Below are positions 5,960 through 22,453 of a stretch of 29,839 nt of DNA, piece by piece. The notes beneath the pieces are model-generated. The model did no database searches and was not told the origin of the DNA. It saw only the letters and a list, made by a program, of their open reading frames with translations. This DNA comes from a virus: positions 1-29,839 of the IMG/VR virus record IMGVR_UViG_3300035670_000974. One strand, 5' to 3'. Made by a program: the position numbers and the translations under genes. Positions within the stretch are counted from its first letter, which is position 1; every line of letters begins with the position of its first letter.

Positions 5960-6277
5960 ATGGCCGTCACGCTAGGCAAAGACGTCTCGATCACGGGCCT
6001 TTCGAACGCCCGGACGGTGACCGTCACCAACAGCGCCGCCGAAATCGACGTCACCAAGCTGGGTGACACCAGCCGCAAATATCGCAAGGCGATGATCGAG
6101 CAGACCGTCGAGGTCGAGTGCGTCGACGATCCCGGAAAAACCGTTGGCCAGACCTTCACCCTGGCCGGTGCCGACACGGGCAACGTCGTCTACGTGGTCA
6201 CCAATGTGGCCGAGGCCGACCCGATCGACGGGATCAAGACGTTCACGGTATCCGCCAGCCGCACCGAGCAGTCCTAA
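5960..6277 (+). CDS. Tail tube-like protein, copy 1 of 3
   Basis: A 105-residue beta-rich protein starting after CAGGAG. It opens MAVTLGKDVSITGLSNARTV and ends with IDGIKTFTVSASRTEQS. The two following genes open and end the same way, so the three are tandem paralogues. Small beta-barrel proteins in front of a tail chaperone and tape measure are normally tail tube subunits, and the a--tDP..G..t...-type beta layout with a final strand of alternating hydrophobic residues fits. This copy contains VECVDDPGKTVG, absent from the others. Which copy forms the tube is unknown. Confidence 0.6.
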   Translation: MAVTLGKDVSITGLSNARTVTVTNSAAEIDVTKLGDTSRKYRKAMIEQTVEVECVDDPGKTVGQTFTLAGADTGNVVYVVTNVAEADPIDGIKTFTVSASRTEQS

Positions 6278-6295
6278 CCAGGGAGACCAGCACGC

Positions 6296-6616
6296 ATGGC
6301 CATTACGCTTGGCAAGGAGGGTACCGCCCCTCCGTTCGGAACTGACGTCATTTCGGCCACCTATACCGAAGAGAAAGAGGTCGTCGACGTCACCAACCGC
6401 ACCAACATGGGCGGCTCAACCGGAAACCCGGGCTATCGCGTCTACAAGGCCGGCCTGACGAACAAGCTCTGGGAGATCGAGTGCCACGACGCCACTGGCT
6501 TGATCGCAGCCCTGGAGACGAACACCGCCACCAGCGATTTCATCGTGATGGGCGTGACCGAAAACATCAGCATCGACGGAGCGGTGACGTTCACCGTGAC
6601 CGCCCGGGAGGCCTAA
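6296..6616 (+). CDS. Tail tube-like protein, copy 2 of 3
   Basis: A 106-residue protein starting 18 bases after copy 1. It opens MAITLGKEGTAPPFGTDVIS and ends SIDGAVTFTVTAREA, matching the ends of its neighbours while the middle differs: this copy has a distinctive TNRTNMGGSTGNPGYRVYKA stretch, close to the serine/glycine-rich segments seen in major tail proteins. Copies diverged in the middle but preserved at both ends suggest a shared barrel with different surface loops, which might let them form successive rings or a tube plus decoration. Confidence 0.6.
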   Translation: MAITLGKEGTAPPFGTDVISATYTEEKEVVDVTNRTNMGGSTGNPGYRVYKAGLTNKLWEIECHDATGLIAALETNTATSDFIVMGVTENISIDGAVTFTVTAREA

Positions 6617-6620
6617 ACCC

Positions 6621-6980
6621 GTGGCGATCACGCTGGGCAAGGACGCGACTGTTTCGGCTGGTGGATCTGTTGTCGGCGTCCGAAACGTGCAGTTCTCCAG
6701 CTCCGCCCGCACGATCGACCTGGAAGAGTATGGCAGCCGGTTTTCCTCCGTGTATTCGACCGGCCGCGATGCGTCCCTGTCGATGGAGGTCAACGACGAC
6801 CAGTCCATGTCCGGGCTGTTTGCGTCTTTAAACAACGGCACCGAAATCACTGTTTCTGGCGGCCAGGGATCGTGGTCGTTTCCGGCCATTGTCACGGCTA
6901 TCAACGAATCGGCGTCGATTGACGGCGTCGTGACGTTTCAAGTGGAGGCCCGGCTGACCAAGTCGGGATTGAGAACGTGA
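6621..6980 (+). CDS. Tail tube-like protein, copy 3 of 3
   Basis: A 119-residue protein starting at GTG 6621, with GGGAGG at 6606-6611 giving a good spacing; the alignment of MAITLGKDATV with the other copies fixes this start. It ends SIDGVVTFQVEARLTKSG, again like copies 1 and 2. The middle resembles phage tail tube proteins that contain r-v-fs-sa-tiDle--Gs, here NVQFSSSARTIDLEEYGSRF. The stop overlaps the GTG of the tail chaperone gene. This copy sits directly before the chaperone, the usual place of the major tail protein. Confidence 0.65.
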   Translation: MAITLGKDATVSAGGSVVGVRNVQFSSSARTIDLEEYGSRFSSVYSTGRDASLSMEVNDDQSMSGLFASLNNGTEITVSGGQGSWSFPAIVTAINESASIDGVVTFQVEARLTKSGLRT

Positions 6981-7746: not shown

Positions 7747-10115
7747 GCAGGGTACGGGGCGGGCAAGTATTCGTTGAAATCGGGGCCGATCCCCGCCGGC
7801 TGTTTAAGTCGCTGCAAGACTTGAACAAACACATAGGCCGGGTGGGGAGCCAGCTGCAGTCGCTGGGCACCCGGATGACAGCGTTCGGGGCGGCGCTCAC
7901 GGCTCCGCTGGCGCTGGCTACCCGGCAGTTCGCGACCTTTGACGACGCGATCCGGGCGACGGCCGCCGTGTCTGGGGCCAGCGGGGCGGCCCTGCAATCG
8001 CTGAACGACCGCGCCCGCGAGCTGGGGGCCACGACGTCGTTCACGGCGGTCCAGGTGGCCAACCTCATGACCGAGCTGGGCCGGGCCGGCTTCAGCCCCG
8101 ACGAAATCAACTCCATGACCGGTGCCGTGCTGGACCTCGCCCGGGCCACCGGCACTGACGCCACGCTGGCGGCTGGAATCATGGCGGCTACCCTGCGGCA
8201 GTTCGGCCTGGGTGCTACCGAAGGTGCTCGAGCGGCCGACGTCCTGACCAAGGCGGCCAACGCGACGTTCAACACGGTCGAGGGCTTGGGCGAATCGCTC
8301 AAATACGCCGGGCCGGTCGCCCAGTCGCTGGGCATGAGCCTCGAGGACACGGTGGCGGTCCTGGGCGTGCTCGGCAACGTCGGCATCCAGGGCAGCGAGG
8401 CTGGCACGGCCCTGCGGCGGCTGTCGGTGATCGCGGCCGGCAGCGGCGACGAGCTGCAGAAGCTGTTTGGCGTGACCAACACAGACGCGGCCGGCAACCT
8501 CAAGCCGCTGGTGGACATTCTCGACGAGATCAACACCGTCACGGCCGGGATGCCGGTGGCGGAGCGGACAGCCAAGATGGCCCAGGCGTTTGGCCTTTTG
8601 GGTATTACGTCCGCTAATGTGCTGTCGTCCAGCGCCGACGGCGTGAAGGGCTTGGCGGAGCAGCTGCGGAACGCCCAGGGCACTGCCGCGGCAACCGCCA
8701 AGGAAATGGACGCCGGGCTTGGCGGGGCGTTTCGGATCATGGCATCGGCGGTCGAGGGAACGGCCCTAGCGATCGGGGACGCGCTGGCTCCATCCATCCA
8801 GTACCTCGTCGAAGGCATCACACACGCGGCCGGCACGCTGACGGCGTTCATCAAAAACAACGAGGAGATGGTTGTCGGCATTGCCAAGGGTATCGCCACG
8901 TTTGCCGGGATCTCCGCTGCGATCCTGGGCATGGGCGTTGCCCTGTCGGCGGTGGCCGCGGCGTTTGGCCTTGTCCTGTCGCCCGTCGGGTTGATTGTGG
9001 CTGGTGTCGTCGGCCTGGTCGCAGCCGTCAACCAAGCCACGGGCGTCCTGGGCCAGTTGGCCGGCATTGCCTCGACCACGTTCAGCGGGATCTACGACGC
9101 TCTTGCGGCTGGCGACCTCGGCCTAGCCATGGAGATCATGTGGGCCGGAGTGCAGGCGGCCTTGATCCGCGGCGTCAATGCCACGATGGCCACATTTGAT
9201 TCGTGGGTGGCGTTTCTGCAGAACGTCTTCACCTACGCCGGCGTCGATCTGATGGCCGTCTGGGAATCGCTGTGGAGCGGCATTGTCCAAGTCTTAAACA
9301 CAGACAAAGCGATCGTTTTGGGTGTAGTCGACAACATCGTCAACGGCGTGATGGCAGCCTTTGACGCCATGGTGGCCGCAGTCAAAAAATCGTGGAACTG
9401 GGTGCAGTCCTTTATCGTCAAGGGCTACGACCTGGCCGAAGAGAACCGCAAGGTCGACAGCGAAATGCAGGCACGAGCCGCACAACGGTCGGCATCGCGG
9501 CCGGGCGTTCAAGGCCGCATGGCCCAGGCGGCAGACGAAAACGCCGCAACAGCCGCCGCAACGCAAGCCCGCATTGACGGCGCCAGGGCCAATGCCGACG
9601 CGATTGCCCAGGGACGGCTGGACGAGAACGCTCGCCGGGCCGCGGCTCGCGATGCGGACGCAGTAGCCTTGGAGGGCCGCGTGGGCGAGCTGCGGCAGAC
9701 GGCGGCCGATCGCCGGGCCGTCGCCGGGCAAGTCGGAGAGTTGGACCGAAACCTGGCCAGCGTCACGACCATGGACCAACTGCAGGAACTGGCGGGCACG
9801 TTCCGCGAGTTGCGCGACAGCGGCAAGCTCTCGGCAGAGCAGCTAGGCCGGCTGGAGTCGTCCCTAGATGACGCCAGCGAACGAGTCATGGAAGCCGGGT
9901 TGGGCGGCAGCGACGTCGGTCAAGCGGCTGCCGCTGGTGCTGCTGCCGCGCAGGCCACTGCCACGCAGTCGGCCGCCGAGGTCGTGGGAACGTTCAGCGG
10001 CGCTGCACTTGGCCAGCTCGGATTCGGCGGAAACCTGGCACAGCGGCAGCTCGACGAGCAAAAGCGGACGAACCAAATCCTAAACGACAAACTGGGCACC
10101 ACTGTGGCCGACTAA
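7743..10115 (+). CDS. Tail tape measure protein, TP901 type
   Basis: A 790-residue protein starting at ATG 7743. Residues of about 60-360 carry the TP901 tape-measure core, including FDDAIRATAAVSGASG, LGATTSFTAVQVANLM and the later GIQGSEAGTALRRLS. Around 375-440 are hydrophobic stretches (GISAAILGMGVALSAVAAAF; LSPVGLIVAGVVGLVAAV) typical of the membrane-active part. The C-terminal third is Ala/Arg/Glu-rich coiled coil. The protein sets tail length and is probably ejected into the host envelope during infection. At 790 residues it implies a tail near 120 nm by the usual 1.5 Angstrom per residue rule. Confidence 0.92.
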   Translation: MSRVRGGQVFVEIGADPRRLFKSLQDLNKHIGRVGSQLQSLGTRMTAFGAALTAPLALATRQFATFDDAIRATAAVSGASGAALQSLNDRARELGATTSFTAVQVANLMTELGRAGFSPDEINSMTGAVLDLARATGTDATLAAGIMAATLRQFGLGATEGARAADVLTKAANATFNTVEGLGESLKYAGPVAQSLGMSLEDTVAVLGVLGNVGIQGSEAGTALRRLSVIAAGSGDELQKLFGVTNTDAAGNLKPLVDILDEINTVTAGMPVAERTAKMAQAFGLLGITSANVLSSSADGVKGLAEQLRNAQGTAAATAKEMDAGLGGAFRIMASAVEGTALAIGDALAPSIQYLVEGITHAAGTLTAFIKNNEEMVVGIAKGIATFAGISAAILGMGVALSAVAAAFGLVLSPVGLIVAGVVGLVAAVNQATGVLGQLAGIASTTFSGIYDALAAGDLGLAMEIMWAGVQAALIRGVNATMATFDSWVAFLQNVFTYAGVDLMAVWESLWSGIVQVLNTDKAIVLGVVDNIVNGVMAAFDAMVAAVKKSWNWVQSFIVKGYDLAEENRKVDSEMQARAAQRSASRPGVQGRMAQAADENAATAAATQARIDGARANADAIAQGRLDENARRAAARDADAVALEGRVGELRQTAADRRAVAGQVGELDRNLASVTTMDQLQELAGTFRELRDSGKLSAEQLGRLESSLDDASERVMEAGLGGSDVGQAAAAGAAAAQATATQSAAEVVGTFSGAALGQLGFGGNLAQRQLDEQKRTNQILNDKLGTTVAD

Positions 10116-10118
10116 ATC

Positions 10119-11027
10119 ATGCCAACCTTTACCTGGGTCGAGGATAACACGTCACGCGGGGCCACCATCCACCGCCTGGGCAAGCGTGCCCAATCGACGT
10201 ACCGCAAAAGCTGGAAGATTTTCGGCACGACCAACGACGTAGCCGTCCACGACGACGTTAATGCGACGTTGTGGCAAAACTACATGTTCTGGCAGTACCC
10301 CGGGCAGCCTCAAAACAGGCTGCACGCCGAAAGCTACACGCTGGAATATCTAGGCGACGAGGCTTGGCATCTCGAGGTTAGTTACGCCAGCCAGGGGGCT
10401 GAGGATGACCAACAACAGGATCCCCTCAAGCGCTCTCGCTCGTTTGACACCGGCGGAGCCACGCAGCACATCACGCAGGCGATTCCGTCGGACACGTTTC
10501 CTTTTGGCGACCAGTCATTTCATACCGGATCGCCAGCGGCGCCCAACATGCGCGGAGCTATCGGCGTTGATGGCGACAGCGTGCAGGGCGTCGACATTGT
10601 CGTTCCGCAACTGACCTGGACGGAAACGTATGACGTTCCGGCCATATTTGTCACATCTGCGTATATAAAAAACGTGTCGAGTCTGACTGGCACGGTGAAC
10701 GATGCCACGTTTCGCGGGTTCGCTGCCGGGGAGGTCCTGTTTCTTGGAGCAAGCGGATCACAGCAGTGGGATAGCGACAAGGGAGACGGACCCTGGAGCC
10801 TGTCCTACAAGTTCGTCGCTAGTGCCAACCAAGGCAACGGAAAAACTTACCCGGCGATCAAGATTGGCGACATCACTGGCATAGAAAAAGACGGGCACGA
10901 CTACCTGTGGGTGCGGTACGAAGACCTGGTGGAAAATCAGACGCTGCTGAAAAAACCAAAGTTCGTTTACGTCGACAAGGTGTACCGGCGGGCGTCGTTT
11001 AATCAGTTGGGAATCGGAGTTGCCTGA
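10119..11027 (+). CDS. Putative distal tail or tail tip protein
   Basis: A 302-residue protein directly after the tape measure, where distal tail proteins are encoded. It is rich in beta strands and aromatic residues, with PTFTWVEDNTSRGATIHRL near the start, a central segment on a cargo of Gly/Asp/Thr, and DGPWSLSYKFVASANQG followed by ITGIEKDGHDYLWVRYED near the end. The latter part looks like a compact beta domain that I associate with conserved hypothetical phage proteins. No catalytic motif is seen. Its stop overlaps the next start (ATGA type), so the tail tip genes form one unit. Confidence 0.5.
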   Translation: MPTFTWVEDNTSRGATIHRLGKRAQSTYRKSWKIFGTTNDVAVHDDVNATLWQNYMFWQYPGQPQNRLHAESYTLEYLGDEAWHLEVSYASQGAEDDQQQDPLKRSRSFDTGGATQHITQAIPSDTFPFGDQSFHTGSPAAPNMRGAIGVDGDSVQGVDIVVPQLTWTETYDVPAIFVTSAYIKNVSSLTGTVNDATFRGFAAGEVLFLGASGSQQWDSDKGDGPWSLSYKFVASANQGNGKTYPAIKIGDITGIEKDGHDYLWVRYEDLVENQTLLKKPKFVYVDKVYRRASFNQLGIGVA

Positions 11028-15351: not shown

Positions 15352-15588
15352 ATGATCGCGGCGGCACATTTTCGACGCGGTGCGGGCGACAGGGAGCAGA
15401 TCGCGGCCCCCGGGGAGTCGCCGTCGTTTGCGGCCAACTACACGCCCAGCCAGCAGGCGTGGGGCAAGTTAACTAGCCGCGAGCCGCCACCGGATAGCCT
15501 CGCGGCGTTGCAGCTGACAGCGTTTCGCTTGGGCGTCAAGCCGGCCGCGTTGCTGAAGGCCATTAAGGTGGGGCTGTTCAATGGCTGA
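15352..15588 (+). CDS. Hypothetical small protein
   Basis: A 78-residue frame after a 39-base gap, ending eight bases into the next gene. The last 30 residues (LAALQLTAFRLGVKPAALLK and KVGLFNG) form a clear amphipathic helical pattern; the first half is polar and less ordered. No family is recognised. No good ribosome binding site precedes ATG 15352, so the start may be internal. The coupled overlap with the next gene and good codon use favour a real product. Confidence 0.5.
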   Translation: MIAAAHFRRGAGDREQIAAPGESPSFAANYTPSQQAWGKLTSREPPPDSLAALQLTAFRLGVKPAALLKAIKVGLFNG

Positions 15589-16096
15589 TTCAGTCAACGA
15601 CACGCTGACAGGCACGATCCGGACTGTGATGATCTGGAATCGCACAGATTCCCAAGAAATCGGGTCCATCGCCAACGCCAAAACGGTGATTAACGACTAC
15701 CGGCTGGCGGACGGTGACGGGGCGGGCGAGGCGGACCTGGTCTACGCAGACAGCCGCACGATCGCGGCCGGCGTGATGGAGCATTTTGACCTGACCAACC
15801 TCACCCAGACCACCCTTGGCACGAGCGTGCCGTTTTCGTTTAAGCAGGTCAGGTGCGTCAAAGTCCGAAACACGTCTGCGTCGTCAGGCAGCCGGCTGCT
15901 TGTCGGCGTGTCGCCGGGTTCGCCGTTGACGGTGTATGCAGCCGAAGTCGGCCCTGGCAGCGAATGGTTTGCCATCAACTACACCGACGCGTGGGAAGTC
16001 ACCGACGCCAACAAGGTGTTTCGCTTGAGCAACCCAACCGCTGACGCAATCACCTACGAGTTCTACGTTTTCGGCACGTCAGTGGAGGCATCCTGA
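15581..16096 (+). CDS. Putative virion surface protein, paralogue 1 (DGDGAGEAD motif)
   Basis: A 171-residue beta-rich protein. It carries LADGDGAGEADLVY near residue 45, then alternating strands including VRCVKVRNTSASSGSRLLVG and ending YEFYVFGTS. The next gene has the same motif (LSDGDGAGEADGYW) and the same order of strands, so the two are paralogues. The acidic DGDGxGEAD stretch could bind calcium. Small paired beta proteins of this type in a phage late region may be decoration or adsorption proteins. The function is not known. Confidence 0.6.
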   Translation: MADSVNDTLTGTIRTVMIWNRTDSQEIGSIANAKTVINDYRLADGDGAGEADLVYADSRTIAAGVMEHFDLTNLTQTTLGTSVPFSFKQVRCVKVRNTSASSGSRLLVGVSPGSPLTVYAAEVGPGSEWFAINYTDAWEVTDANKVFRLSNPTADAITYEFYVFGTSVEAS

Positions 16097-16581
16097 TGCC
16101 GACCTTTACGCTGAACGGCCAGTTGCGAATCGTGCCGAGGTGGTCTGACGTCATGTCCACCACCGACGTCACTGATAGCGTCAGCGTGTTTCAACAGCTC
16201 GCGCTGTCCGACGGCGACGGGGCAGGGGAGGCCGATGGTTACTGGCGAGACGTGCGGTCGGTTGCCGCGACCACAACCGACACGATCACGCTGGCTTCGC
16301 TGCCGCTGTCTGTGTTTGGCGGCAGCGGCACGCTGGACCTCGACGAGCTGAAGCTGGTCTACGTCCGCAACCTGTCGGCCACGCTGCCGCTGCAGTTGCG
16401 GTTCGGCTACCCGACCGCCCAGGTCACAACCGACCTGATGCTGCGGCCGGGCGGGCTGCTGCTGCTGTCCGGCGGGACCGCGCTACAAGTCGACAGCACC
16501 GCCCCGACCACGATCGAGGTGGAGAACGCAGGGGCCACGGCCGCCCAGTATGAAATCGTCCTTGTAGGAGTGCAGGCATGA
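16096..16581 (+). CDS. Putative virion surface protein, paralogue 2 (DGDGAGEAD motif)
   Basis: A 161-residue protein starting at ATG 16096 on the previous stop. It shares with paralogue 1 the acidic motif, the following R-x-x-AA segment and a strand with KLVYVRNLSATLPLQLRFG against KCVKVRNTSASSGSRLLVG-type residues, then a closing strand YEIVLVG. The opening PTFTLNGQLRIVPRWSDVM is its own. Divergence between the copies is large, so the duplication is old. The likely role is the same as that of its partner, perhaps as a hetero-oligomer. Confidence 0.6.
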   Translation: MPTFTLNGQLRIVPRWSDVMSTTDVTDSVSVFQQLALSDGDGAGEADGYWRDVRSVAATTTDTITLASLPLSVFGGSGTLDLDELKLVYVRNLSATLPLQLRFGYPTAQVTTDLMLRPGGLLLLSGGTALQVDSTAPTTIEVENAGATAAQYEIVLVGVQA

Positions 16582-16946
16582 TCGCAGACGCCCCCCTGGC
16601 CGCTGGCAGCCAGTTCACCGACGTCGTGAACGCTGCCAGGGCCTACGTTGTCACCGCCAAGGCAGCGGCCCGCGACGGCCTGACCTGGACCGAGTTTGGC
16701 GAGCTGCTGGTGGGCCTGCTGCGGCTGGCCGTCCAGACCGTCGACGTCCTTAACGTGCCCGGTGAGCAGAAAAAGGCCGTGGTCATGGAGGCCGCCGCGG
16801 CCCTGTTTGACGCTGTGGCCGACAAGGCGATCCCGACGCTGGCCTGGCCGCTGTGGGTGCTGATCCGCCCGTCTGTCCGCTCGCTGGTGCTGGCGTTGGC
16901 CAGCGGTGCCGTGGAGCAAATCCTGCCAATGGTGAGGGATCGCTAA
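16578..16946 (+). CDS. Hypothetical helical protein at the start of a membrane-associated run
   Basis: A 122-residue, almost wholly helical protein with ATG on the preceding stop. It is rich in Ala, Leu and Val. The last third (LAWPLWVLIRPSVRSLVLAL, followed by ASGAVEQILPM) is hydrophobic enough to lie on or in a membrane, though charged residues interrupt it. It precedes four genes with membrane segments, so a role in lysis or envelope contact is possible. No family is recognised. Confidence 0.55.
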   Translation: MIADAPLAAGSQFTDVVNAARAYVVTAKAAARDGLTWTEFGELLVGLLRLAVQTVDVLNVPGEQKKAVVMEAAAALFDAVADKAIPTLAWPLWVLIRPSVRSLVLALASGAVEQILPMVRDR

Positions 16947-17504
16947 ATGCTGACCGCCGCGCTGATCATCGCTGCCGCCCTGGTCCTGGGCGGCAAAGAC
17001 CTCTGGCACAAGCTGGCCCCGATGGTGGCTGCGGTGCCGCGGCCGGAGTTGTCGTGGCGTCAGGTGGCCGCGGCGGCCCTGCTGATCGGGGCGGTGGTCG
17101 CGTTCAACCTGGGCAGCCCGGTGGCCCCGGCTCCCGGCCCCGAGCCGGCCCCGGGGCCAGTTGACCTCCGCGGGCTGTTCACCGGCCCGACCGGGGCCGA
17201 AGACGCCGCGATCGTGGCGGCCCTGACCGGCGAGCTGGCCGACGAGATCGCGTGGGACGGGACGCTGGAGGAGCCGCTCCTGAAGACGGGCGTGGCCCTC
17301 GACGACCTCCGGCAGCGAGCCCGCGAACTGCGATGCCGTGGCGTGTCGATCGGCCAGCGGCAGCCAGCAGCCCGGGACGCGATCGCCAAGCACCTAGAGG
17401 CGGCCGTCGGCACGTCCGGTGGCCCGATCGACGACCAGGCCCGGGCCGCGTGGGTGCGGGCGCTCCGCGAGATTTCGGAGGCGGCTGAACGTGTCACGCG
17501 CTGA
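16947..17504 (+). CDS. Membrane protein with two N-terminal hydrophobic segments, holin candidate
   Basis: A 185-residue protein starting directly after the previous TAA. Hydrophobic segments lie at 1-16 (LTAALIIAAALVLGG) and about 41-57 (VAAAALLIGAVVAFNLG), separated by a short polar loop, then a Pro/Ala/Gly linker (SPVAPAPGPEPAPGP) and a soluble helical domain of about 110 residues. Two membrane segments would be compatible with a class II holin-like topology, but the large C-terminal domain is unusual for that. Alternatively it anchors a cytoplasmic or periplasmic domain. It sits just before a papain-like peptidase with its own membrane anchor. Confidence 0.55.
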   Translation: MLTAALIIAAALVLGGKDLWHKLAPMVAAVPRPELSWRQVAAAALLIGAVVAFNLGSPVAPAPGPEPAPGPVDLRGLFTGPTGAEDAAIVAALTGELADEIAWDGTLEEPLLKTGVALDDLRQRARELRCRGVSIGQRQPAARDAIAKHLEAAVGTSGGPIDDQARAAWVRALREISEAAERVTR

Positions 17505-18603
17505 GTCAAACGCCCTCCGCCTCTTCGCCACGGTGTTCCTGCTCGCGCTGGGCGTCGGGGCGTACATCTACTCGAGCACCGCCCCGCGGCTGGTGGCCGA
17601 TGCCGGCTTTGGCTGGCAGCCGGACCCCGAGGGCGTGGCCGAGTTTCTCGACGAGTTGGGCGAGCGACGGTTTTTCAGCCAGGCCGCTCCCGAGGCCATG
17701 GAGAAGGCCCAGCGGGTCGACACGTTTCTGTATCGGGCCATGGCCAAGGCCCACCAGGCCCGCTACGGCCGGCCGTGGGTTTGTGAAAAGCAGGGCATTG
17801 GAGATTGCGTGGCGTGGGGAGCCGTGCACGCGGTCTGGTGCTCTGAATCAATCTCGTGGGATCTGGGCCTGATCGCGGAGCCGCCGCTGCTGCCGAGCCC
17901 GGAGGCGATTTACGGCGGGAGCCGCGTCGAGGCCCGCGGCAAGCCCGAGGGCGGCGGCGGGTGGAGCGACGGCAGCTATGGCGGGGCCGCCGCCAAGTGG
18001 CTGAGAGACTGGGGCGTCGTCTACCGGCTGCCGTTCGACGACCTGGGCTACGACCTCACCAACTACTCAAAGGACCGGGCCAAGCAGTGGGGCAACTGGG
18101 GCGCGGGCGGCCAAGGCGACAAGGGCCGGCTGGACACGATCGCCAAGAAGCACCCGGCCCGCCACGTCGTGGCCGTGCGGACCTGGGACGAGCTGGTGGC
18201 CGCGGTGACCGCCGGTTTCCCGGTGACCATCGCGAGCAATCAGGGATTCGGCTCGCGAACCGATGAGGTGGGCGCGCTGCCGGCCCAGGGCACCTGGATG
18301 CATCAAATGTGCATTGTGGGGATCCGGTTTGCCGACAAGTCGCCGCCCGGCGTCAAGCCAATGGACGCCGCGCTGATCCTGAACAGCTGGGGCACCCGCT
18401 GGATCAGCTACGCCGGCAAGTACCCGTCCGACCAGCCCGACGGATCATTCTGGGCCACGCGGCCGGTCGTAGAGCGGATCCTGCGGCAGGACGATTCCTA
18501 TGCCATTGGTGACATCAAGACCGGATTCAAGTGGCGCGACATTCATCACGGCAACTGGCTGGCCCCCGGGCCGATCGAGACCCTCTCACAGGTTGAACCA
18601 TGA
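17491..18603 (+). CDS. Papain-type (C1) cysteine peptidase with N-terminal membrane anchor
   Basis: GTG 17491 is chosen because GGAGG (17477-17481) lies upstream and the hydrophobic N-terminus begins just after. The 370-residue protein has a signal-anchor at 10-27 (RLFATVFLLALGVGAYIY). The catalytic set of papain is visible in order: Q101 and C106 in QGIGDCVAWG, H271 in WMHQMCIVGI, and N298 in LILNSWGTRW. All of oxyanion Gln, Cys, His and Asn are present, so activity is expected outside or at the membrane. No classical endolysin is recognised in the window; this enzyme, between several membrane proteins, is the best candidate to cut envelope protein or peptide cross-links. Confidence 0.8.
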   Translation: MSRAESNALRLFATVFLLALGVGAYIYSSTAPRLVADAGFGWQPDPEGVAEFLDELGERRFFSQAAPEAMEKAQRVDTFLYRAMAKAHQARYGRPWVCEKQGIGDCVAWGAVHAVWCSESISWDLGLIAEPPLLPSPEAIYGGSRVEARGKPEGGGGWSDGSYGGAAAKWLRDWGVVYRLPFDDLGYDLTNYSKDRAKQWGNWGAGGQGDKGRLDTIAKKHPARHVVAVRTWDELVAAVTAGFPVTIASNQGFGSRTDEVGALPAQGTWMHQMCIVGIRFADKSPPGVKPMDAALILNSWGTRWISYAGKYPSDQPDGSFWATRPVVERILRQDDSYAIGDIKTGFKWRDIHHGNWLAPGPIETLSQVEP

Positions 18604-18857
18604 CCATCGACCGAAAGACAGTGGCGGCGTTTCTGATCGCGTTCGTGCTGGGCTACTGGTGGGCCTCGTCGGCGTGCCGGCCCTGGACGCCACACACCGA
18701 CCGGCCCGTGCTCACCTGGCTGGCCGGGGCCGCCAAGCGGCTGTTGTGGATCGCCATCGTGGCCGACCCACCGCCGGCCGACATCGAACAGCGAGCGGTC
18801 GAGGCCCGCGTTGGTGACGACGGGTTTCGCGTCGTGCAGCACAGTCGGGGGTGGTGA
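18600..18857 (+). CDS. Small single-span membrane protein
   Basis: An 85-residue protein with ATG overlapping the peptidase stop. A single hydrophobic segment at about 8-24 (VAAFLIAFVLGYWWASSA) is followed by a soluble tail with a second weak hydrophobic patch (LLWIAIVADPP). One-span proteins after a lytic enzyme are often spanins or antiholins; no lipobox is seen here. The residue pattern does not identify a family. Its place in the membrane-gene run is the main argument for a lysis-related role. Confidence 0.55.
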   Translation: MTIDRKTVAAFLIAFVLGYWWASSACRPWTPHTDRPVLTWLAGAAKRLLWIAIVADPPPADIEQRAVEARVGDDGFRVVQHSRGW

Positions 18858-18858
18858 C

Positions 18859-19221
18859 ATGAGCCTGTGGCGTTGGTTGATCGGATGGCTCGTTTGGCTG
18901 TCGGCCGACCCGGCCGCGGTCGACCTCGAGCGCCCGAAGGCCGCGGCTGCCGTGGCGGCTGCCCGGGCAAGCCTGGTCACGTCCTCCCCGACGCCGGCAC
19001 CGCCGGACCCGAAGCCCGGCGAGTGCTGCGGTGAGTGCGGCGGCCGCGGCTACCTCGTGATGCCGGACGGCCACCGTGTTGCGTGCCCGTGCCCGGCCAC
19101 CTGCCTCTGCAAGGCCACCAAATCCGCCCAGAAGCCCGAAGCCTGTCCGGACGGCAAATGCCCCGCCCCGGGGGCCTCGCCCGCGACTGCTTCACCGGCC
19201 AGGCCTGCGGGCGGGAGGTGA
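18859..19221 (+). CDS. Membrane-anchored Cys-rich protein
   Basis: A 120-residue protein starting at ATG 18859 next to the previous stop. The start MSLWRWLIGWLVWLSADPA is a short Trp-rich hydrophobic anchor, followed by an Ala-rich helix and a Pro-rich stretch. A Cys-rich module follows: CCGECGGRGY, then CPCPATCLCK and CPDGKCPAPG, resembling a DnaJ-type zinc ribbon (CxxCxGxGx...CxC). In an oxidising compartment the same residues could form disulfides. The function is unknown; an outer-facing spanin-like or envelope role is only a guess. Confidence 0.55.
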   Translation: MSLWRWLIGWLVWLSADPAAVDLERPKAAAAVAAARASLVTSSPTPAPPDPKPGECCGECGGRGYLVMPDGHRVACPCPATCLCKATKSAQKPEACPDGKCPAPGASPATASPARPAGGR

Positions 19222-19223
19222 CG

Positions 19224-19601
19224 GTGGGCGAGGCTCCCGTGGCGACACCGCTCTTAGACCTGCAGGAAGAAATCCGCCGGCGGATGGGTGCCCAGGCCGC
19301 CGGGATGGCCGAGGCCTGCGACGAGGTTGTGATGGCGGCTTGCCGGTGGTGGCCCCAGCGGCACATGGCCAGCATCGCTCGCCAAGGCCGCGAGCACGGG
19401 CCGGAGGCCCTGGAGGCTGTGCCCGTGATTGAGGCCAAGATCCGCGAGGATCTGGAGGCCCGCTACGGGACCGATCCCAACACCCTGCGGGCGCTCGACC
19501 TCCTGGTCCAGTCCGTGGTGATCGAAATGTGCTCGCTCTGGTTCAACGACGTCGAGGCCCGCATCGCCATGCGGCGGGCCATGTGGGTGGCCCGGCTTTA
19601 G
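19224..19601 (+). CDS. Hypothetical helical protein at the end of the late operon
   Basis: GTG 19224 is preferred because GGGAGG (19213-19218) is five bases upstream; GTG 19218 would overlap the previous stop but has no spaced site. The 125-residue product is all-helical with Trp/Arg-rich segments (MAACRWWPQRHMASIARQG) and a long charged helix (VIEAKIREDLEARYG), ending MRRAMWVARL. No family is recognised. It is the last rightward gene before the converging integrase operon, and its stop overlaps the stop of a 23-residue peptide on the other strand. Confidence 0.55.
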   Translation: MGEAPVATPLLDLQEEIRRRMGAQAAGMAEACDEVVMAACRWWPQRHMASIARQGREHGPEALEAVPVIEAKIREDLEARYGTDPNTLRALDLLVQSVVIEMCSLWFNDVEARIAMRRAMWVARL

Positions 19602-22181: not shown

Positions 22182-22246
22182 TCAGGGACGGTGGTGCCGG
22201 TCGCTGGCGAGGGATCGCCGGCGGCCGGGTTTTGAAAGGGACGTTT

Positions 22247-22453
22247 GTGCTGGTGTTGTCGCGAAGGCTGGGGCAGTCGGTGGTGATCCCAGGTTGCCGG
22301 GTCGAAATCGTGGTGCAGGAGATCCACGAGGGCACGGTGCGGCTGGGGTTCAAGGCTCCCGACCACGTTGACATCTACCGGGACGAAATCTGGCGGGACA
22401 TGTGTTTTGAGGATTGGAACAAGAGGAGCGACCACGATGGGACTGAAGATTGA
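22247..22453 (+). CDS. csrA: Phage-encoded CsrA-family RNA-binding regulator
   Basis: GTG 22247 is chosen because the product then begins MLVLSRRLGQSVVI, the classical CsrA start, and AAAGGGA lies just upstream; an open extension upstream to GTG 22178 has no conserved sequence. The 68-residue protein keeps the RNA-contact residues R6 and R7, the VRLGFKAPDHVDIYRDEI core and R45. CsrA dimers bind GGA in mRNA leaders and usually block translation. Here it lies between early regulators and a recombinase, so it may re-tune host mRNAs or the phage's own GGAGG-rich leaders. Confidence 0.9.
   Translation: MLVLSRRLGQSVVIPGCRVEIVVQEIHEGTVRLGFKAPDHVDIYRDEIWRDMCFEDWNKRSDHDGTED

Follow-up and report, generated by a model that had tools for sequence, protein, structure and literature searches.

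A candidate protease-centred lysis cassette in tailed phages related to planctomycete proviruses

The holin-endolysin-spanin cassettes of lambda and Mu are compact sets of late genes in which small membrane proteins accompany one envelope-degrading enzyme; they lie near tail genes or upstream of the terminase, and unrelated enzymes are exchanged in the enzyme slot. The signal-arrest-release (SAR) endolysins of P1 (Lyz) and phage 21 carry an N-terminal transmembrane (TM) signal anchor, and the CHAP and NlpC/P60 endolysins use Cys/His catalysis on a papain-like fold. For archaeal viruses, lysis by proteases has been put forward as a hypothesis in connection with S-layers (PMC4456609). Here we describe a cassette of five genes (M1, M2, C1, M4 and M5) at positions 16578-19221 of a single IMG/VR record, IMGVR_UViG_3300035670_000974, the partial genome of a temperate tailed phage (the window, meaning the whole 29.8 kb of DNA analysed). 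With a probability of about 0.68, the cassette is a host-lysis module centred on a papain-type protease, C1, which takes the place of a peptidoglycan hydrolase; a thiol-redox protein plausibly helps it. We found no description of, or precedent for, a protease-lysis cassette of this kind in the literature searched.

This reading is strengthened by the fact that the cassette is conserved and moves as one unit, by its lysis-typical positions and the lack of any known peptidoglycan hydrolase in near-complete relatives, and further by its replacement with an unrelated, secreted serine protease at the same slot, by a thioredoxin in the slot of M5 and by hosts without D,D-transpeptidases. The same observations lend support to an earlier note on this DNA, which had proposed a protease-centred lysis cassette from the sequence of the window; we infer the lysis itself, the protease activity, export and substrate of C1, and the roles of M1, M2, M4 and M5.

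The cassette and its predicted peptidase

The features at the locus are as follows (aa, amino acids).
M1, 16578..16946, + strand: 122 aa, conserved, helical, possibly membrane-active; holin candidate
M2, 16947..17504, + strand: 185 aa, a pair of TM helices, then a Pro-rich linker and a four-helix bundle
C1, 17491..18603, + strand: 370 aa, N-terminal TM anchor and predicted papain-fold cysteine peptidase, GTG start at 17491
Gln101 of C1, 17791..17793, + strand: predicted oxyanion-hole residue
Cys106 of C1, 17806..17808, + strand: predicted catalytic nucleophile
His271 of C1, 18301..18303, + strand: predicted catalytic residue
Asn298 of C1 (NSWG motif), 18382..18384, + strand: predicted catalytic residue
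M4, 18600..18857, + strand: 85 aa, single TM segment at the N-terminus, conserved motif at the C-terminus that ends in RGW
M5, 18859..19221, + strand: 120 aa, hydrophobic N-terminus and Cys-rich (DnaJ-like) domain
X, 19224..19601, + strand: 125-aa helical protein after the cassette, an optional member (39/80 contigs)

The five genes are tightly packed between the tail block upstream and an inverted integrase downstream, and they are coupled as the earlier note had described. M1 shares a 4-nt ATGA overlap with the preceding gene (16096-16581), the ATG of M2 follows the M1 stop immediately (0 nt), the overlap between M2 and C1 is 14 nt if C1 begins at its best start, GTG 17491, C1 and M4 share another 4-nt ATGA overlap, and 1 nt separates M4 from M5.

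On conserved residues and predicted structure, C1 is a divergent relative of the papain family (C1) that lies outside Pfam PF00112 membership. Gln101, Cys106 (in KQGIGDC), His271 (WMHQMC) and Asn298 (NSWG) are invariant in an alignment of 28 diverse relatives, all of which also have a hydrophobic N-terminal segment, the signal-anchor feature of SAR endolysins; both the complete Gln-Cys-His-Asn set and the membrane anchor that had been read from the single sequence thus hold across the aligned relatives. The AlphaFold2 model (predicted local distance difference test score, pLDDT, 84.8) has a papain fold, and Foldseek places xylellain first (3ois, E=5.6e-11), together with cathepsin B and many other cathepsins. 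Sequence profiles alone miss the family, and the assignment therefore relies on residues and structure: Pfam searches of the window for C1 and C39 gave no match, the window's C1 does not reach the curated PF00112 cut-off (3/28 members match, best E 0.029), and the profile of the 28-sequence alignment matched no PDB sequence. IMG/VR holds 101 confirmed relatives; none was found in isolated phages.

The partner proteins agree in part with the earlier description of them. M2 has two TM helices in the window, as had been noted, M4 has one and M1 is helical; neither M1 nor M5 has a strong TM segment. M2 always adjoins C1 on its upstream side. In many relatives it has a single TM helix, and a separate small one-TM gene stands between M1 and M2 (L045:9219-9456 and equivalents), so that the M2 of the window carries an additional N-terminal helix relative to these lineages; distant proviruses have lipoprotein-like versions. 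The topology of M2 (AlphaFold2 model pLDDT 88.5) and M4 would suit spanins, with no family match for either, and M4 occurs in variants among relatives. M1 is a holin candidate by analogy; its dN/dS (ratio of nonsynonymous to synonymous substitution rates) is 0.13-0.25, and in distant proviruses its slot is filled by unrelated small TM proteins. M5 is Cys-rich in phages, and a profile links it to provirus proteins (L092-L094). The homologues in planctomycete proviruses have a thioredoxin domain (PF00085 1.4e-6, PF13899 1.3e-7), and in L093 and L094 the Cys-rich and thioredoxin parts are fused in one protein.

Elsewhere the window encodes tail genes, a tape measure (PhageMin_Tail 2e-45), an integrase, a repressor, a ParB-Dam protein and a CsrA-family regulator (22226-22453; PF02599 1.6e-15), among others. 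Three tandem paralogous tail-tube-like genes lie at 5960-6980 (105, 106 and 119 aa), a triple also present in two related genomes (G005, G009). Two neighbouring paralogous genes at 15581-16581 match phrog_22694 and directly precede the cassette in many relatives.

Conservation, exchange and the search for a muralytic enzyme

Among 80 viral contigs with C1, M2 is present in 78, M1 in 74, M4 in 71 and M5 in 62, where some of the missing members reflect contigs cut short. Judged from sequence, the recurrence of this gene set in about 80 viral contigs is more than chance, and dN/dS values of 0.13-0.30 across all five genes indicate purifying selection. The cassette is kept as a unit and the flanking genes differ between groups. 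It occupies at least three genomic positions: between tail genes and integrase in the window, G005 and G009, at the end of the early region upstream of the terminase in G004 and G008, and between the head-maturation protease and the major capsid protein in G012; in proviruses (G409, G319, G172 and others) C1 stands beside further types of head genes. These varied positions suggest that the cassette travels alone. Where it follows the tail genes or precedes the terminase it has a late-gene position on the same strand as these genes.

The earlier note had recognised in the window neither a muramidase, an amidase or a transglycosylase nor a CHAP-type endolysin, and domain searches of the window agree. 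However, the window is a 29.8-kb part-genome in which no terminase, portal or capsid gene was found, and absence within it is weak proof; longer relatives were therefore searched. Six-frame searches, run with positive controls on 14 viral records, two of them near-complete genomes of 44 kb, found no Amidase_2, SLT, CHAP (PF05257), Phage_lysozyme, M23 or M15_3 domain. When the window, both of these long relatives and the Blastopirellula marina provirus were scanned with Pfam, again no muralytic domain appeared, among the best 25 of 33 families (the other eight being weak) and the best 25 of 81 in the long relatives. G005 (44.0 kb) carries terminase, portal, capsid and tail genes as well as genes for an integrase and for recombination, G009 resembles it, and most of the initially unselected open reading frames of both genomes were scanned as well. 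The endolysin that the earlier note had asked to be sought beyond the window was thus not recognised in the near-complete relatives or in the provirus. The cassette may function like a lysis cassette, but a non-canonical one that contains no recognised muralytic enzyme.

Among phages retrieved by way of the G012-type capsid gene, 15 loci with the same capsid family carry the C1 cassette and four loci of one phage type (L238-L241) carry a trypsin-type cassette in the same slot; none of the same-capsid loci that are long enough lacks both. Two loci (L171, L211) have no C1 within 10 kb, and the tail region is longer at both. In the four loci M1 is retained, and the place of M2-C1-M4-M5 is taken by small membrane proteins of other kinds, C1b (290 aa) and a secreted trypsin-like protease, in which a signal peptide and a Cys-rich DnaJ-like domain are fused to the protease (Trypsin_2 E=3.4e-22, DegQ 1.8e-9; catalytic H94/D125/S197 conserved). 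The two cassettes are mutually exclusive, with no overlap between 156 and 81 loci. M1 lies upstream in 65 of 78 trypsin-type cassettes, which lack C1, and is thus common to both types. That one protease is replaced by another at one slot, while the presumed holin-like partner stays the same, speaks for envelope proteolysis as the output of the cassette.

The trypsin-type arrangement (M1, small membrane proteins, C1b and trypsin-like protease; L238:5170-8671, L251-L327) is a second abundant cassette type, found on at least 114 viral contigs. C1b has 114 relatives, and the trypsin gene follows it in all 69 cases with room. Its Gln76, Cys82 and His235 are invariant; we did not adopt a papain assignment for C1b, as its profile comparison with C1 was non-significant (probability 3.5%) and a PDB search gave no meaningful match.

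Hosts and the planctomycete wall

The composition of the planctomycete wall has been disputed for decades. The envelope has been described as protein that resists SDS, abounds in proline and cysteine and is stabilised by many disulfides (PMC3035269), Cys-rich YTV proteins are present in wall preparations (PMC8567305), and murA-J, mraY and pbp2 are dispensable in Planctopirus limnophila (PMC10632474).

Eight C1 loci were found when about 85,000 species genomes were scanned, in Planctomycetota (including B. marina), one bacterial metagenome-assembled genome, one small contig assigned to Alphaproteobacteria by binning, and two Mucilaginibacter; within planctomycetes the C1 family is present in 12/392 genomes, and most of its cellular homologues come from this phylum. 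B. marina and two related genomes have the order M1-M2-C1-M4-thioredoxin-like-142aa-TerL-portal-capsid, as part of an element of about 24 kb.
Blastopirellula-like element, L084:5991-20398 with L121:5145-15191; L137/L138; L142/L143: terminase, portal, capsid, tail tube and lysis-like cassette
The element occupies one syntenic chromosomal site over its whole length in three Blastopirellula-like genomes at 55-97% identity, and is thus vertically inherited. No integrase was recognised in it, and it looks like a domesticated provirus or an element resembling a gene transfer agent. It also codes for two further proteins, an ABC-ATPase/GNAT fusion and one that carries an RNA polymerase alpha C-terminal domain (L084:6721-7797 and 7891-8265).

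All five genomes with a close cassette (G001, G141, G353, G359, G002) lack the PF00905 transpeptidase, which is missing in only 15/392 planctomycete genomes. For the whole C1 family, 5 of 12 genomes coincide with PF00905 loss (Fisher p=2.7e-5), and with the Blastopirellula-like trio counted once 3 of 10 do (p=0.003).

A wall rich in proline, cysteine and disulfides would suit a protease acting with a thiol-redox protein. In the mechanism that we propose, the N-terminal anchor would export C1 with its catalytic domain outside; M1, the TM part of M2, or both, would act as a holin-like trigger; M2 may tether or control C1; and M5, in its Cys-rich or thioredoxin form, may keep C1 or the disulfides of the envelope in the reduced state. 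Together these parts would dissolve the disulfide-stabilised protein wall of the planctomycete host and free the virions. The more general proposition, that phages of planctomycetes break their hosts open through proteolysis and disulfide reduction of a protein wall, independently of peptidoglycan and with interchangeable papain and trypsin cassettes, we consider evenly balanced between right and wrong.

Alternative explanations and comparison with known systems

Several observations weigh against a protease-centred lysis module in planctomycete hosts. An endolysin of an unfamiliar family or fold may escape the searches made here. M1 matched no Pfam or PHROG entry and no holin family, its TM segments are weak, and a fold search with M2 gave no PDB match, M4 likewise matching no known fold. 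The positive-inside bias of C1 is weak (65 Lys/Arg before the TM segment versus 48 in the next 15 residues, over the 28 sequences), which makes its external localisation uncertain. The family is not restricted to phages, since two Mucilaginibacter chromosomes (L086, L087, ~10001-10800) carry a lone C1 homologue without an N-terminal TM segment among ordinary genes. Shared ancestry inflates the association between C1 and PF00905 loss, and seven hosts of distant C1 homologues have penicillin-binding proteins (G172, G214, G303, G319, G341, G381, G409), so that the tie to peptidoglycan loss is not strict. Planctomycete hosts are traceable for relatives, and that of the window's own phage is putative.

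An alternative explanation, which we regard as unlikely, is that C1 is a papain-fold endolysin of the CHAP or NlpC/P60 kind that cleaves peptide or isopeptide linkages of (residual) peptidoglycan rather than protein. Such endolysins are common, phage lysin proteins are among the weaker Foldseek matches of C1, the hosts of distant homologues have two penicillin-binding proteins, and peptidoglycan in planctomycetes is reported in work cited by PMC10632474. However, the signature with NSWG is truly that of papain, xylellain and cathepsins match best, the CHAP search was negative, hosts of the close cassettes lack D,D-transpeptidases, and the alternative cassette employs a protease of trypsin/DegQ type.

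It is improbable that the cassette serves lysogeny or superinfection exclusion, with an anchored protease that protects the lysogen by cleaving envelope receptors or incoming phage proteins. The membrane location, the temperate phage (integrase, repressor) and the membrane nature typical of exclusion systems would fit, but the cassette lies in the late block on the strand of the tail or terminase genes, persists in an element that is inherited vertically and in which no integrase was detected, and with five genes including a holin-like partner exceeds what such systems need. Still more doubtful is a role of C1 in maturing a structural or cassette protein: it adjoins capsid genes in one phage group, yet those phages encode a separate head-maturation protease (phrog_80, 1.8e-43), for which reason prohead protease and virion roles were rejected, and C1 is TM-anchored and differs in position among groups. 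Tail-borne proteases can assist phage entry, but the opening of the envelope at entry by virion-borne C1, which the earlier note had offered as its second possibility, is the least credible explanation, given the anchor in 28/28 aligned relatives, the lack of any link to virion proteins and the movement of the cassette independently of tail genes.

If a protease-centred lysis module is the correct reading, the cassette would represent a new mode of bacterial lysis by phage and a concrete bacterial genetic candidate for protease lysis. It would reveal the load-bearing polymer of the planctomycete wall, provide enzymes for dissecting that wall, widen the definition of an endolysin and serve as a marker for planctomycete phages.

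The cassette shares with those of lambda and Mu its compact late organisation, its position and the exchange of unrelated enzymes in one slot; it differs in that the enzyme is a predicted protease rather than a muralytic enzyme, in the additional Cys-rich or thioredoxin partner, and in that the holin and spanin roles are putative. As in SAR endolysins, C1 has an N-terminal signal anchor and TM-less homologues exist, but its fold is that of a papain protease and its release from the membrane is putative. The papain-like fold and Cys/His catalysis are common to C1 and the CHAP and NlpC/P60 endolysins, from which it is set apart by Gln-Cys-His-Asn with NSWG, by its structural proximity to xylellain and cathepsin B and by the absence of a CHAP match. 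Bacterial C1 peptidases of the xylellain type have the same fold and catalytic residues; unlike them, C1 is below the PF00112 cut-off, phage-encoded, membrane-anchored and part of a cassette. The pseudomurein endoisopeptidases PeiW and PeiP of methanogen viruses belong to another peptidase family and act on another substrate, but they parallel our reading of C1 in that a cysteine protease serves as the lysin on an unusual wall.

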